From Peptococcaceae bacterium 1109 (GTDB lineage: Bacteria; Bacillota; Limnochordia; Darwinibacteriales; Darwinibacteriaceae), in assembly GCA_001028815.1 (NCBI GenBank), contig LDJB01000008.1, positions 1 to 32,537 on the forward strand: a stretch of 32,537 nucleotides of DNA, read 5' to 3'. The notes under the pieces were generated by a model. That model did not search any database. It saw only the letters and a program-made list of their open reading frames with translations, and was not told the DNA's origin. The translations under genes were made by a program, and so were the position numbers. Positions 8,942 through 32,444 of this stretch are shown piece by piece (position 1 is the first letter of the stretch; each line of letters begins with the position of its first letter).

Positions 8942-9775
8942 TCACCTAGCGGTTGTGTCATATGATAGGTGCGGCAGCATCCATCCTTGTGTGGAAAAAG
9001 CCCTGTTTAGGACTGGCTCAGACTCGGCCAGATGATTTTCGGAGAACTCGCAGACGAATATCCCCTTATAGCTAGCGGCCTTAGCAAGTAGAGCGAACTC
9101 ATCCCAATCCACCGAGCCCATACCAGGGCCGAGGTGGCTGTCAGTATCCCCCAGATTGTCAGCAAGATGGGTGTAGTCCCAAAACGCCCCCAGCTCGGTG
9201 GCAAAGGCCCGGAGGTTACCGCAAATGTGAGCATGGCCCACATCGATGTTGAGCTTCACTCGTGGGTGCTCATCCAGGAGGGAAAAGAACTCTCTAAACT
9301 CTTTTGGAGTGGAGCCAAAGGGATTGGGAAGATAATCTGGCACGTTCTCGAAGTACAGCGTCTGTCCATTGGCCTCCAGCTTCTCAAGCCAAGGCCTAAC
9401 TATCCTAGCTGCCCTGACCCATCCTCCGTGAGGCGTGGCCAGGAAGTTCAGGTGGATGTTCACCAGTTGAATTCCCATATCCGAACATCGTTGGAGCAGC
9501 TCCAGCCCCCGCGCGGCGGCTTCTGCCTCAGGGATCTCCGCCCAATCGAACCAAGGGTGGGCGGTCACTATGACGTCCAGCTCACGGGCGAGTTCTCTCA
9601 GGTCCCCCATGACCGGTGTGTGAGTCAGGCAGCCGTCCACTAGCTCTTTACCGAAGAGTTCGATCCCGGCGAACCCTAAGGACTTAGCGCGCCTAAGCAT
9701 ATCTGGCCAGGACTTGCGCTCAGCTAGATGATCTGAGCTGATCAGTAACGCCATGTTTTCTCGTGTGCTTTCCAT
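8942..9775 (-). CDS. sugar phosphate isomerase/epimerase-like TIM barrel (AP endonuclease 2 superfamily)
   Basis: A probable xylose-isomerase-like barrel enzyme that isomerises, epimerises or dehydrates a sugar or inositol derivative with a divalent metal. I start it at ATG 9775 (MESTRENMALLISSDHL), 8 bases after GGGGGAG; the GTG at 9784 touches that site. This gives 277 residues. Motifs include GFAGIELFG, VNIHLNFL, the metal-ligand segments YFENVP and NIDVGHAHI, and FVCEFSE near the end. It lies between the permease and PHP genes and therefore probably processes the imported sugar. The exact reaction is not predictable. Confidence 0.85.
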   Translation of the reverse strand: MESTRENMALLISSDHLAERKSWPDMLRRAKSLGFAGIELFGKELVDGCLTHTPVMGDLRELARELDVIVTAHPWFDWAEIPEAEAAARGLELLQRCSDMGIQLVNIHLNFLATPHGGWVRAARIVRPWLEKLEANGQTLYFENVPDYLPNPFGSTPKEFREFFSLLDEHPRVKLNIDVGHAHICGNLRAFATELGAFWDYTHLADNLGDTDSHLGPGMGSVDWDEFALLAKAASYKGIFVCEFSENHLAESEPVLNRAFSTQGWMLPHLSYDTTAR

Positions 9776-9793
9776 GATACCCACTCCCCCAAC

Positions 9794-10615
9794 TTAGGCC
9801 TTGACCGCGCCAGCTGTAAGGCCTGCTACAAAATGGCGCTGCAAGAGGAGAAACAGCAAAATTAAGGGGACAACGCCTATTGTGGCTGCCGCGCTGATGC
9901 GGGGCCAATCCATCTGAAACTGTCCGATAAAGGTGTATAGTCCCACCGGAAAGGTCTTAAGAGCCGTCCTGGTAATCATCAACAATGCAATAAGGAACTC
10001 GTTCCAGGCCGCAACAAACACCATTAGTGCACTGGCCACCATTCCTGGGCGGGCCAAGGGCAAAACAACGCGAGTCAATGCCTGAAAAGGAGTACACCCA
10101 TCTACCTGAGCTGCTTGCTCTAGCTCTGGTGGTATCTGCTCAAAGTAGCTCTTCATCAGCCACACACTGACAGGAAGTGAGGCAGCTGAGTAGACCAGCA
10201 CCAAAACAAGGTGGGTGTTCAGCATACCGAGCTTGAAGGCCATGTAGTAAAGGGCGATGGCATTCCCTAATCCGGGGATCATCTGGGTACCTAGGAGAAA
10301 GAAGAGTAAGAAACTCTTTCCGGGAAATGAAGCCCGAGCAAAGGCGAAACCGGTGAGGGAACCGAGGGTCACCGTCAAGAGAATGGTCACCGCGCTCACC
10401 TTCATGCTGTTGTAAAACTGCTTCAATATACTCGATGAGAAGAGTACATGCTTGTACGCATCGAGAGTCGGATTCTGCGGTATGATGGTTGGCGGAAAGA
10501 TATAGATTTCCGATTGGGTCTTAAACGAAGTTATAATAGTCATTGCTATGGGGCTTACCATCACGAAGGTGATCACTACGTAGGTTAAGACCAACCCTAG
10601 GCGCTTCCAGTTCAT
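9794..10615 (-). CDS. carbohydrate ABC transporter permease, MalG type (second importer)
   Basis: A CUT1 sugar-importer permease, 273 residues, with about six transmembrane helices and the EAA loop EQAAQVDGCTPFQALTRVV followed by LPLARP. It starts at ATG 10615 with a GGGGGG site overlapping the end of the upstream permease gene (11 bases between them), so the two are co-translated. It resembles 1960-2796 in layout, but its residues differ enough that the two importers are not a recent duplication. No ATPase subunit is encoded in the operon. Confidence 0.93.
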   Translation of the reverse strand: MNWKRLGLVLTYVVITFVMVSPIAMTIITSFKTQSEIYIFPPTIIPQNPTLDAYKHVLFSSSILKQFYNSMKVSAVTILLTVTLGSLTGFAFARASFPGKSFLLFFLLGTQMIPGLGNAIALYYMAFKLGMLNTHLVLVLVYSAASLPVSVWLMKSYFEQIPPELEQAAQVDGCTPFQALTRVVLPLARPGMVASALMVFVAAWNEFLIALLMITRTALKTFPVGLYTFIGQFQMDWPRISAAATIGVVPLILLFLLLQRHFVAGLTAGAVKA

Positions 10616-27605: not shown

Positions 27606-30038
27606 TCAACCACTCCTTACCACAATGTCCCGAGGAAGGAGGCGGAGAAACTGACTGGGCTCACGTCGTTTCTGTGGGCTAGCCATTTCGTGCCAGCTGA
27701 TATACAGCTTCTGCTTTGCACGTGTAAGCCCCACATAGAAAATGCGCCATTCCTCATCAACTCTGCCCTCCAGCATAGCACCGTAGTTAGGAAACTCATA
27801 GTGCACTAGTCCGGGCATAAATACCACATCAAACTCTAAACCTTTCGCCTGATGGATGGTAATCACCGCCACCCGATCCTTTCTGTCGATACGGTCAATG
27901 TTGCGAACTAAAGCTGCAAAACCTACAAATGCTTCTAAAGCCTGGAGCGGCGGCATCTTACGATCGTCTATTTCCCGGGCTGTATTGCGCAGTTCGTCAA
28001 TATTCCTCAATCTCTTCTCATCGCGACGATAGTAATGGAAAAGCCCACTTTCCTCAAGGATGAGATCTAACAACTGATAAGGACGCAGTTCGGCCATGAG
28101 AGAACGCCACTTATCGATCTGTTCTGCCAGGGGCCTAAAGACATGGGCTGCGGCCTGAACAGTTCTCCGCCGCTCAGCTGCTCCCCGCTCTATTCTAGGA
28201 ACCAAGTATTTCAGAAGTTCCCAAGTTGTGGCCACATCATCCATTGCCCTGTGAGTCGGTTTCTGGGAAAGACTCAATCGCTCGGCTAAATCGCCCAGTT
28301 TATAGGAATTCGTCTCCATGAAACGCCTCGCTAGAGACAGGGTATCGACATAGGAATCACGCATGAAGGCAATCCCGTTGCGACTGCATGCGCTTTCTAA
28401 CATACGAATGTCGAACACCACGTTATGCCCAACAAGCATGCCGCCGCCAATAAACTCGAGGAAATCCCGGAGTACATCTCGGGGTTCTTCCCCGTTTTCA
28501 TCCAAGAATCTGTCTGTGAAGCCGTGCACATACACACTTCTACCCACAGACTCCCGCGGCTTTAGGTAGCGATGGAAGGTATCCACCAATTTCCCTTTGT
28601 GGATCTTATAGGCAGCCAGCTCGATAATATCATCCTCTAAGGGCTGGATTCCTGTTGTTTCGCAGTCGAATACGATTAGAGTGCCGTGTTGTACAGCGTG
28701 AAGCACTGGCCCAAAGGGGTCACCATAATCTAGTGCTGATAGACTAAGAAGGTCAGTCAGCCGAAGCCCGCTCTTGCTTGCATCCTCAATGCGCTTGATG
28801 GTCACATCTCCAACTCCGCTGGCAGGCCTCTGCAAAATGCGGCGTGAGCTGACGCGATCTTCCGAATTGAGGAGAAGCCGCAAACGGGCCATGCAGTCCT
28901 TTACTTCCTGCCGGCGGAAGAACTCATAGGCTTCCACAGTGATATGGGGAACCTGCTCCCCTTCTAGCACTTTCGAGACGGCGCTGGCCCTCTTGTTGGA
29001 ACGGCATAAAACGCCCATGTCTTTATAAGGAACACCACTCCTGCGGAGCCCCTTGATCTGCTGAGCAATCCACCTGGCCTCAGTTCTCTCATCGGGGGCA
29101 GAGTGAATCACAATTGGGTCTCCTTTTGCCGCGGCTTTGGCAGGGCGAGGCTCTGTTTTGCTTAGAGCCGGAACCACAGCACCCGCTGCGCGAACTAAAG
29201 TCTCTGTTGCCCGGTGGTTTTCCACAAAGGTCATATACTTTTGACGAGGAAAATCCTGCCTAAACCGCTCGATAACCGTTTCCGGTACCGAGCCTCGCCA
29301 CTCATAGATGGTCTGGTCGAAGTCACCTGCTAGAACCAAGTTCTGTGCTTTCCGAGCCAGGTGGGCAACCACCTCATATTCCATCAGGGTAGTATCCTGC
29401 ATCTCATCCACTTGTATCAGGTCAAAGCGAGTGCTCCATTCCTCGGCTAGAGGACCGTTGGGCAAGAAGGCTCGGTGAGTTAATAGGATTAAGTCGGAAA
29501 AATCCAGTGCCTTGTATGCAGCCAATTCCCGTTGATACAAAGCAAGCAGCTTATCAACGGTACCTCTCTGTAAAGGGGGCCCTTCCTTAGGAGCTACCAC
29601 CCTTCCGTAGAGCTTGTACTCTTCGAGCATATAATAAGTATCCCTGGCGCTTAAGTGCACCAGTTTTGGCAACTTGAGATCATCAATAATGTCTTGAGCA
29701 TCATCTTCATCAATGATACAGAAATCTTGGGGAACACCCAGCTTGACAGCACCCTGGCGGATGATCCAGGCGCACAGGCTGTGAAAAGTGCGGGTAACAA
29801 CCTTGTGACTGTCTTCAGGGCAGTACAGTTCGATCCGCTGGCGCATTTCTTCCGCGGCGCGGTTTGTAAAGGTCACACAGAGAATCCGCTCAGCTGGAAC
29901 CCCGCGGCGGATGGCTTCAGCGGCACGATTTGCCAAGGCAAAGGTCTTACCTGTACCGACACAGGCATGGAGCAGAATGCTTGTATCAACGCACTCTATG
30001 AACTTCCGCTGAGCATCTGTAGGTCTTATAGGTTTCAT
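27606..30038 (-). CDS. UvrD/Rep-type helicase with an inserted DEDDh 3'-5' exonuclease
   Basis: An 810-residue superfamily 1A helicase. Helicase motifs are Walker A VGTGKT (27-32), motif Ia VTFTNRAAEEM, motif II DEMQD (211-215), motif III LAGDFDQTIYEWRG, motif IV ENHRA, motif V ITIHQAKGLEFDVVFMPG, and motif VI FYVGLTRAK. A DnaQ-like exonuclease lies at about 452-615: D458 and E460 in FDCETTG, D543 in HNVVFDIRML, and H596 and D600 in HRAMDD, so all DEDDh residues are present. It falls between the early 2A/2B segment (GVGDVTIKRI) and the later 2B segment (PYQLLDLILEESG). One polypeptide could unwind DNA and degrade 3' ends in repair. ATG start after GGGGGTG; 14 bases after the upstream membrane-protein gene. 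Confidence 0.93.
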   Translation of the reverse strand: MKPIRPTDAQRKFIECVDTSILLHACVGTGKTFALANRAAEAIRRGVPAERILCVTFTNRAAEEMRQRIELYCPEDSHKVVTRTFHSLCAWIIRQGAVKLGVPQDFCIIDEDDAQDIIDDLKLPKLVHLSARDTYYMLEEYKLYGRVVAPKEGPPLQRGTVDKLLALYQRELAAYKALDFSDLILLTHRAFLPNGPLAEEWSTRFDLIQVDEMQDTTLMEYEVVAHLARKAQNLVLAGDFDQTIYEWRGSVPETVIERFRQDFPRQKYMTFVENHRATETLVRAAGAVVPALSKTEPRPAKAAAKGDPIVIHSAPDERTEARWIAQQIKGLRRSGVPYKDMGVLCRSNKRASAVSKVLEGEQVPHITVEAYEFFRRQEVKDCMARLRLLLNSEDRVSSRRILQRPASGVGDVTIKRIEDASKSGLRLTDLLSLSALDYGDPFGPVLHAVQHGTLIVFDCETTGIQPLEDDIIELAAYKIHKGKLVDTFHRYLKPRESVGRSVYVHGFTDRFLDENGEEPRDVLRDFLEFIGGGMLVGHNVVFDIRMLESACSRNGIAFMRDSYVDTLSLARRFMETNSYKLGDLAERLSLSQKPTHRAMDDVATTWELLKYLVPRIERGAAERRRTVQAAAHVFRPLAEQIDKWRSLMAELRPYQLLDLILEESGLFHYYRRDEKRLRNIDELRNTAREIDDRKMPPLQALEAFVGFAALVRNIDRIDRKDRVAVITIHQAKGLEFDVVFMPGLVHYEFPNYGAMLEGRVDEEWRIFYVGLTRAKQKLYISWHEMASPQKRREPSQFLRLLPRDIVVRSG

Positions 30039-30652: not shown

Positions 30653-30795
30653 TGCCTGACAATCTTCGATGAGGATGTTTTTTCCGTTTTACAGGGTAAC
30701 GCTTCGTTCGCTCCTCCACGGGTTCGCTGGTGCCCACATCTGTCCCATACATAGGAAAAGCAGCTCTTCCTGCTTCTCCCAGTCCATCAACGTTA

Positions 30796-30824
30796 TTGAC
30801 AACCCCCCTTTCAAGACGTACACT
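30796..30824 (+). promoter_or_regulatory. sigma-A promoter of the FMN-binding protein gene
   Basis: TTGACA (30796-30801) and TACACT (30819-30824) are separated by exactly 17 bp, a near-consensus housekeeping promoter, 47 bases before the start codon. Confidence 0.75.
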
Positions 30825-30870
30825 GGGATAGTGGCAGCGCACACAAACTTATCCATGGAGAGGTGAACGT

Positions 30871-31455
30871 ATGAAGAACTGGAAGAACATTGGTATTTTT
30901 ACTGTCATTCTTGTTTTTGCCTTGTCCTTTACTGCCCTGGCTTGGAATGACGGCGTCTATGTTGGTAAGGCAGATGGCCACAACGGCCCCCTCAGCCTGG
31001 AAGTTACTGTGGCTCATGGCAAGATCGCAGCCATTAAGGTTCTGGAGCACAAAGAGACTCCCAACATCTCTGACGCTGGCTTCAAAGTGGCTGATACCAT
31101 CATCGCCAACCAGAGCCTCAAGGTTGATGCTGTAAGCGGCGCTACCGTCACCAGCAAAGCGGTTATCGCCGCGGTGAAAAACGCCCTCACCGGTGCTTGG
31201 TCTGACGGCAAGTACAACGGCGAAGCTAAGGGACACAACGGCCCACTTTCGCTCGAAGTTGAAGTGGTAAATGGCAAGATCGCCAACATCGCCATCCTCA
31301 GCCACAGCGAGACTCCTATGCTTTCTGACGCAGCATTCAACAACGTGCCTGCCGCTATCATCGCTGCTCAGTCTACCCAAGTGGATGCTGTTTCTGGGGC
31401 AACTGTAACCAGCAAAACCATTATGGCTGCTGTGAACGACGCGCTGTACAAGTAA
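30871..31455 (+). CDS. secreted protein with two tandem FMN-binding domains
   Basis: A 194-residue exported protein. A Sec signal peptide (about 1-24, ending TALAW) precedes two homologous FMN_bind modules (about 26-107 and 109-193). Each carries the covalent-flavinylation motif DAVSGAT; the expected FMN-bearing residues are T92 and T178. In known proteins of this type (NqrC/RnfG-like) an ApbE transferase attaches FMN through a phosphoester bond. Both modules also share GHNGPLSLEV and a conserved ETP. There is no lipobox or membrane anchor, so it is probably soluble outside the membrane. GGAGAGG precedes the ATG. It is a single-gene unit with promoter and terminator, next to an exported nitroreductase. 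The role is likely extracytoplasmic electron transfer. Confidence 0.9.
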   Translation: MKNWKNIGIFTVILVFALSFTALAWNDGVYVGKADGHNGPLSLEVTVAHGKIAAIKVLEHKETPNISDAGFKVADTIIANQSLKVDAVSGATVTSKAVIAAVKNALTGAWSDGKYNGEAKGHNGPLSLEVEVVNGKIANIAILSHSETPMLSDAAFNNVPAAIIAAQSTQVDAVSGATVTSKTIMAAVNDALYK

Positions 31456-31484
31456 TAACAAACATACCTACGTTTAAGAAAGAA

Positions 31485-31523
31485 GCCACCGATTGCAGGG
31501 TTACTCCCCAATCGGTGGCTTTT
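31485..31523 (+). terminator. terminator of the FMN-binding protein gene
   Basis: GCCACCGATTG (31485-31495) pairs perfectly with CAATCGGTGGC (31509-31519), followed by TTTT and a T-rich stretch. An upstream AAG lets it also work on the other strand. Confidence 0.9.
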
Positions 31524-31559
31524 CATTCTTTGTTTGCTTTTCCATCATGAGACTGATCA

Positions 31560-31588
31560 TTGACGAAACGGCCTTGAGCTGGTAAAGT
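31560..31588 (+). promoter_or_regulatory. sigma-A promoter of the exported nitroreductase gene
   Basis: TTGACG (31560-31565) and TAAAGT (31583-31588) are separated by 17 bp, 42 bases before the start codon. The gene is therefore transcribed separately from the FMN-binding gene. Confidence 0.65.
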
Positions 31589-31629
31589 GAAAGTGAAAAC
31601 AATCACAATACCAGCAGGAGGAATGAAGC

Positions 31630-32409
31630 ATGAAAAGAATCACAGCCCTCGGCCTCGTTCTCGCACTTACTCTGGGAATCGTTGGTACCGCGGCCGCAGC
31701 AAGTTTCGATGCCAGCAAACTGATTAACTGGTACGTTGGCGAGCAGAAGTTCCAGACCGTGAAGAACGGCGCCTGGTCTCAAGACCCTGCCGACCGTCCC
31801 ACCGATGAAGAGCTGACCGAGATGCTCACCATGGCTAACACCATGCAGAGTGCCGTTCACTGGACCCCCTGGTACTTCATCGTCGTTAAGGACGTTGAAG
31901 AACAGAGAAAGATCATCGGTGACCGTTGGGGAGCCCCCGAAGATATGGCCACCGAAGGCACCGTAACCGTTCTGGTTCTGGCTGACCAGATCATAACCGA
32001 AGAAGAAGGCCATGTGTCCCCTTACGAGGGTTACTACATGAACACTCCCAAGTATGCCTACTTTGACACCGGTGCAGCCTGCGCCTTGCTGCAAGTAGCG
32101 GCCTCTTCTCTCGGCTATGGCACCCACTACTTTGGCACCATCAACGGCGAGTACGCCCCCTTTGATGTAGCCGATGGGCAGTATCAGTCCATGAGCCGCT
32201 ATGTATCTGATGAAGATATGCGCGGCTGGGGCTACATGGCTGGCGCGTACGGCGAAGAGCTGAACCCCGACTATATTTACCCTGTCAAAGGCAACTGCGT
32301 GTTTGTAGCTGCCATCGTCATCGGTAAGCCCGCCGCAGAAACAGAAGTGGATGTCATCACCTGGGCTACCAACAGAGCACGTCCTCAGAACTGGACCTTC
32401 TGGGACTAA
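31630..32409 (+). CDS. exported nitroreductase-family flavoprotein
   Basis: A 259-residue protein with a clear Sec signal peptide (MKRITALGLVLALTLGIVGT then AAAA, mature from about residue 25). The rest matches the nitroreductase fold: PTDEELTEMLTMANTMQSAV with HWTPWYFIVVKD near the N-terminus, the central VTVLVLADQ, and DTGAACALLQVAASSLGYGT, the usual dimer-interface helix. These enzymes bind FMN and normally use cytoplasmic NAD(P)H, so export is unusual and implies another electron donor. The ribosome-binding site is AGGAGGAA. It is transcribed alone, right after the secreted FMN-binding protein. The family's usual N-terminal RRS/RRxR motif is replaced by a divergent segment, so it may not be a classical enzyme. 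Confidence 0.88.
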   Translation: MKRITALGLVLALTLGIVGTAAAASFDASKLINWYVGEQKFQTVKNGAWSQDPADRPTDEELTEMLTMANTMQSAVHWTPWYFIVVKDVEEQRKIIGDRWGAPEDMATEGTVTVLVLADQIITEEEGHVSPYEGYYMNTPKYAYFDTGAACALLQVAASSLGYGTHYFGTINGEYAPFDVADGQYQSMSRYVSDEDMRGWGYMAGAYGEELNPDYIYPVKGNCVFVAAIVIGKPAAETEVDVITWATNRARPQNWTFWD

Positions 32410-32444
32410 GCAGTAACGAATAAGCATACAACACTCGCTCCTAC

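Follow-up and report, generated by a model that had tools for sequence, protein, structure and literature searches.

A candidate extracytosolic reductase unit pairing an exported nitroreductase-fold protein with an FMN_bind carrier

We propose that two neighbouring genes specify a flavin-based reductase unit acting outside the cytosol, with a carrier fed via an Rnf-type complex, and we put the probability of this reading at about 0.7. The genes lie in a stretch of DNA, hereafter the window, that opens contig C8 (its first 32.5 kb) in a genome of 2.70 Mb. In the proposed mechanism, ApbE, encoded elsewhere in the genome, would attach FMN by phosphoester bonds to residues T92 and T178 in an exported FMN_bind protein. 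Electrons would exit the cytosol via an Rnf-type complex in the membrane, for which the second Rnf-like cluster described below is the simplest candidate, and would pass from flavin to flavin to this 2xFMN carrier. The carrier would then take over the role of NAD(P)H in reducing the exported nitroreductase-fold protein, which would in turn reduce a small acceptor outside the membrane. The partnership of the two proteins, a guess in the original prediction, is now strongly supported by gene fusions, an operon, a conserved cassette and a linkage count of 10/12 in the exported family versus 0/36 at ordinary nitroreductase loci.

The two genes form a conserved cassette

Both open reading frames have the coordinates originally predicted (table 1). 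Their closest homologue outside the genome is locus L025, where the nitroreductase is 92% identical and an FMN_bind gene (84%) lies directly upstream. The DNA shared with L025 spans 30795 to 32411, its left end coinciding with the -35 box of the FMN_bind gene and its right end with the stop of the nitroreductase gene. When the window was compared with L025 by blastn, there was no other nucleotide match in the window, apart from repeats inside the FMN_bind gene. Only the cassette matches, so the flanks differ, and the pair appears as a discrete, movable cassette. Directly downstream of the homologous nitroreductase, L025 encodes two small proteins (9031-10199) that by eye resemble flavodoxins or FMN reductases.

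Each gene had been credited with a strong promoter of its own. A plausible promoter-like site does precede each gene, but the number of such sites is close to chance by count alone (3 observed, 2.1 expected), and whether the promoters are strong is doubtful. The terminator hairpin and the second promoter-like site between the genes point to two transcription units in the window, where a single operon is thereby ruled out. The contig reads N from 32538 to 35417, directly after the window, hiding the region 3' of the nitroreductase gene. The window also encodes a further flavoprotein (Flavin_Reduct, PF01613; 26775-27392, reverse strand), located 3.5 kb from the gene pair and with no clear signal peptide, and a UvrD-type helicase (27606-30038, reverse strand) whose C-terminal helicase region is interrupted by an RNase_T exonuclease domain.

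Table 1. Positions of the gene pair and its features in the window.
Feature	Coordinates	Strand	Basis
Two-gene cassette	30795..32411	+	sole DNA common to the window and the L025 locus, 84% identity (blastn, window vs L025)
Promoter-like site, FMN_bind gene, TTGACA-17-TACACT	30796..30824	+	conserved block with L025 starts here
Exported 194-aa protein, 2xFMN_bind, predicted covalent electron carrier	30871..31455	+	PF04205 x2
Predicted Sec signal peptide, FMN_bind protein, cleavage ALA/W	30871..30942	+	inspection of sequence and hydropathy
Flavinylation motif 1, DAVSGAT, residues 86-92 (T92)	31126..31146	+	fits consensus D-x-x-[S/T]-G-A-[S/T]
Flavinylation motif 2, DAVSGAT, residues 172-178 (T178)	31384..31404	+	fits consensus D-x-x-[S/T]-G-A-[S/T]
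Intrinsic terminator hairpin between both genes	31481..31523	+	-28.0 kcal/mol in folded fragment, then T-rich tract
Promoter-like site, nitroreductase gene, TTGACG-17-TAAAGT, TG before second hexamer	31560..31588	+	sequence match
Exported nitroreductase-fold protein, 259 aa, divergent extracytosolic family	31630..32409	+	PF00881; AF2 and Foldseek/VIA to FMN nitroreductases
Predicted Sec signal peptide, nitroreductase, cleavage AAA/A	31630..31698	+	inspection of sequence and hydropathy
Segment about residues 43-52, TVKNGAWSQD, site of R-x-S-x-R in ordinary nitroreductases; motif absent	31756..31785	+	sequence comparison

The first protein is a predicted double-FMN carrier

Two FMN_bind domains were found in the first protein (PF04205, E 2.3e-40, 137.5 bits, above the Pfam cut-off). 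The two intact DAVSGAT motifs originally reported are confirmed, with T92 and T178 as the predicted acceptor residues, and both fit the published flavinylation consensus (PMC12052999). Sec signals had been assigned to both proteins of the pair, and their N-termini (MKNWKN..FALSFTALA/W and MKRITALGLVLALTLGIVGTAAA/A) do look Sec-like; beyond them, hydropathy revealed no further strongly hydrophobic stretch in either protein. On the basis of hydropathy and the N-terminal sequence, export is predicted for both.

The same genome encodes a second exported 2xFMN_bind protein, 40% identical to that of the window, with no nitroreductase seen adjoining (L022, 7185-7835, reverse strand). We further noticed an exported protein of 591 aa (L023, 5995-7770, reverse strand) that combines a single FMN_bind domain with two long repeats; each repeat carries a DVVTGAT motif outside any recognised FMN_bind domain.

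The second protein has a nitroreductase fold

The match of the second protein to the Pfam Nitroreductase family is weak but valid (PF00881, 30.4 bits vs a curated cut-off of 23.5), and several of its exported relatives score below that cut-off. PF00881 was the sole Pfam family found, and the FAD-binding catalytic domain PF00890 is absent. AlphaFold2 models were built from 6 and 12 relatives, with mean pLDDT of 52 and 62, respectively; in the second model, the core helix and strands are in the 80-95 range. VIA-align placed the first model close to FMN nitroreductases and iodotyrosine deiodinases (Z 10-11.8), and Foldseek matched the second to FMN nitroreductases (E about 1e-6, probability 1.00). 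On these scores we regard the modelled nitroreductase fold as secure, although not its fine detail. The close subgroup of the family retains both the fold and a PWYFIVV core. Self-flavinylation of this protein was considered and set aside, as it has no D-x-x-[S/T]-G-A-[S/T] motif and its conserved [T/N]-x-G-[T/S] (residues 108-111) is off consensus.

The exported family lacks the FMN-phosphate motif

Both proteins had been predicted to use FMN. For the FMN_bind protein this holds by motif only; in the nitroreductase, the canonical FMN-phosphate motif is missing. R-x-S-x-R, which lies near the N-terminus, was found in none of the 12 exported members but in 26 of 28 ordinary nitroreductases from the same searches. 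Of the two controls without it, one open reading frame was apparently called from a later start and the other has RCSVR, which the pattern does not admit. The exported family is therefore filed as divergent nitroreductase-fold proteins and not as canonical nitroreductases, and the catalytic competence of the window protein with flavin remains putative. A less closely related nitroreductase, an exported lipoprotein (L099, 6456-7232), left out of the family count, has a normal Pfam score, an NTQPW motif and VKTTQFF in place of R-x-S-x-R, with no FMN_bind or ApbE neighbour.

ApbE joins FMN via the same phosphate that nitroreductase arginines hold. From this and the motif loss, the idea of a shared flavin follows naturally: the nitroreductase fold would have given up tight binding of an FMN of its own, and the covalent FMN of its partner, in trans or fused, would dock in the pocket as the redox cofactor. 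We consider this possible, if on balance unlikely. An esterified phosphate would need no arginine anchor, and to our knowledge a Sec-exported protein cannot carry non-covalent FMN along with it, which we count in favour of a shared flavin. The FMN phosphate is held by R24, R28 and R175 in AlbA (PMC11055893) and by Arg15, Lys209 and Arg211 in BtNR (PMC10722498), and an engineered nitroreductase with FMN attached covalently to a threonine via its phosphate, by ApbE, stays functional (PMC10722498). However, the FMN_bind fold normally holds its own flavin, other residues such as R250 and R252 in the close subgroup could stand in for the lost anchor, and a model with a mean pLDDT of 62 is a weak basis for judging such docking. 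That the pair is a natural two-part enzyme, in which the esterified FMN of a separate or long-linker FMN_bind carrier doubles as the nitroreductase cofactor, seems to us unlikely. The nitroreductase may hold a flavin of its own in a modified site or borrow one from its FMN_bind partner; a simple change in free-flavin binding is also a possible cause of the motif loss.

The exported family is linked to FMN_bind and ApbE

Conserved linkage, which the original prediction proposed to look for, was found in related genomes as FMN_bind neighbours, FMN_bind fusions and a nitroreductase-ApbE-FMN_bind operon. In L027 and L028, a single polypeptide joins an exported nitroreductase (62-63% identical to that of the window) to an FMN_bind domain (E 2.5e-16 and 8.8e-16) by a Pro/Ala/Glu-rich linker of roughly 40 residues, and an exported ApbE gene adjoins the fusion in divergent orientation. 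The same ApbE neighbour recurs in L029, which lies at a contig edge. The carrier motifs of the two fusions deviate (SAAT, TGVT), and motif substitutions of these kinds (G to A, A to V) lower flavinylation elsewhere (PMC12052999); against these deviant motifs is set the divergent ApbE of the same genomes.

The same pattern recurs in family members at a greater distance. Three lipoproteins, a nitroreductase, an ApbE and an FMN_bind protein, form in this order a complete operon in L097, and in L053 the gene of a nitroreductase lipoprotein overlaps that of an FMN_bind lipoprotein. L054 (4246-9686) encodes in a row an exported nitroreductase with a C-terminal extension, an ApbE and a 2xFMN_bind plus FAD_binding_2 reductase. 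An exported nitroreductase in L055 and a LysM-nitroreductase in L098 lie beside ApbE, which thus adjoins the nitroreductase in L027, L028, L029, L054, L055, L097 and L098. ApbEs encoded beside these nitroreductases group together, separately from the remaining ApbEs in their genomes (support 0.987), suggesting that some lineages have a dedicated flavin transferase.

Altogether, 10/12 exported members adjoin or are fused to FMN_bind and/or ApbE, L053 being counted by its Pfam FMN_bind match, compared with 0/36 ordinary nitroreductase loci, which were scanned for the same motifs and average only 3.1 kb (Fisher's exact test, about 1e-8). Not all 12 members are independent (window/L025; L027/L028/L029), and the linkage occurs in at least six separate lineages. 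The L052 locus is cut by a contig end. L026 (64% identical) is a true exception, as FMN_bind and ApbE are both absent within 1.5 kb; in the genome concerned, another exported nitroreductase does adjoin ApbE. The family is rare: close members occur in 1/398 genomes of the sample from its own phylum, and in a class sample around another member strong matches occur in 2/391 genomes besides the seed genome. A search of viral contigs and plasmids revealed no relatives.

ApbE neighbours are at least as frequent as FMN_bind neighbours. Together with the lost FMN-phosphate motif, this would suit a nitroreductase-fold protein that is no enzyme but an accessory, capturing extracytosolic flavin for ApbE or scaffolding the FMN_bind carrier. 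We judge such a role improbable: ApbE-FMN_bind systems otherwise need no such protein, the close subgroup has kept its PWYFIVV core and nitroreductase fold, and the long-linker fusion to a carrier resembles the reductase-carrier architecture of FMN_bind-fumarate reductases (PMC8238504). Chance adjacency of an ordinary FMN_bind protein and an unrelated exported nitroreductase, with which the separate promoters, the intervening terminator and the several other FMN_bind loci in the genome would agree, is very improbable in view of the operons, the linkage count and the discrete conserved cassette, and we reject it because fusions in two genomes refute it in practice.

For the reductase unit that we favour, the points counted against it are the unlinked L026, the separate transcription units in the window, the missing phosphate motif and the deviant motifs of L027 and L028.

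Candidate electron donors in the genome

An apbE gene was sought in the genome and is present: the one ApbE (E 1.1e-92, C1:806365-807186) is encoded where a complete rnfCDGEAB cluster ends. Genes for a membrane electron donor were likewise sought, and two Rnf-type clusters were found. The second, at about 180-186 kb of C1 (L019, 3722-10049), has the order rnfC, an rnfD extended by a string of FMN_bind domains, rnfE and rnfA. An assembly gap interrupts the fused RnfD, which has four or more FMN_bind domains ahead of the gap and one beyond it; the RnfE/RnfA-like subunits are divergent, and no rnfB was seen in the stretch. Among the other FMN_bind proteins of the genome, the domains of this cluster are the best match to the window protein (50% identical).

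An outward flow of electrons has been proposed for multi-flavinylated RnfG proteins (PMC8238504), and the second Rnf-like cluster is possibly a one-way electron exporter. The most economical route would lead from the Rnf-like complex over its FMN_bind string to the 2xFMN carrier and on to the nitroreductase. Genome content and sequence similarity suggest this donor; gene linkage cannot show the direction of electron flow.

Relation to known systems

In our literature search, largely of openly accessible main texts, we found no exported or extracellular nitroreductases linked to flavinylation. Two flavinylation surveys (PMC8238504, PMC11334425) do not mention nitroreductases in the main text. 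As far as this search reached, the unit of exported nitroreductase and FMN_bind protein has not been described before, which falls short of proof of novelty. As several members score below the Pfam nitroreductase cut-off, domain-based surveys can miss the family. If our reading is correct, the small group of known reductases that covalent flavins supply with electrons from the membrane would gain a member with a new catalytic fold, and the unit would explain how a nitroreductase can operate outside the cell without NAD(P)H. If the motif loss reflects a shared carrier flavin, this would be a new way of supplying a cofactor to an exported enzyme. The pair also hints that anaerobic Bacillota use an electron acceptor not yet recognised.

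With its RnfD-FMN_bind string and no rnfB in the cluster, the second Rnf-like cluster resembles the multi-flavinylated RnfG and Nqr-Rnf-like systems of outward export (PMC8238504); it is not adjacent to the window pair, and its role as donor is putative. Nitroreductase folds with covalent FMN are known from BtNR-F3 and AlbA (PMC10722498, PMC11055893). BtNR-F3, however, is man-made, and the natural AlbA has an 8alpha-S-cysteinyl link that is not made by ApbE. The cytosolic nitroreductase superfamily (NfsB, BT_1316/BT_1680, BluB, iodotyrosine deiodinase) shares the fold (Foldseek probability 1.00, VIA Z about 11), whereas members of the window family are exported or lipoproteins, are roughly 15-20% identical over structural alignments, lack R-x-S-x-R and are presumably not driven by NAD(P)H. 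The window system is also similar to the extracytosolic Firmicutes flavoproteins that are linked to apbE and descended from non-covalent flavoproteins, but these carry the motif inside the flavoprotein, whereas here the flavin would sit on a separate or fused FMN_bind domain. FMN_bind-containing fumarate and urocanate reductases (L. monocytogenes FrdA and S. oneidensis UrdA; PF00890 and PF04205) are likewise exported and receive electrons via an ApbE-flavinylated FMN_bind domain, fused or nearby as here (PMC8238504). Their catalytic domain has the FAD-dependent fumarate-reductase fold, in place of which the window family has a nitroreductase fold.
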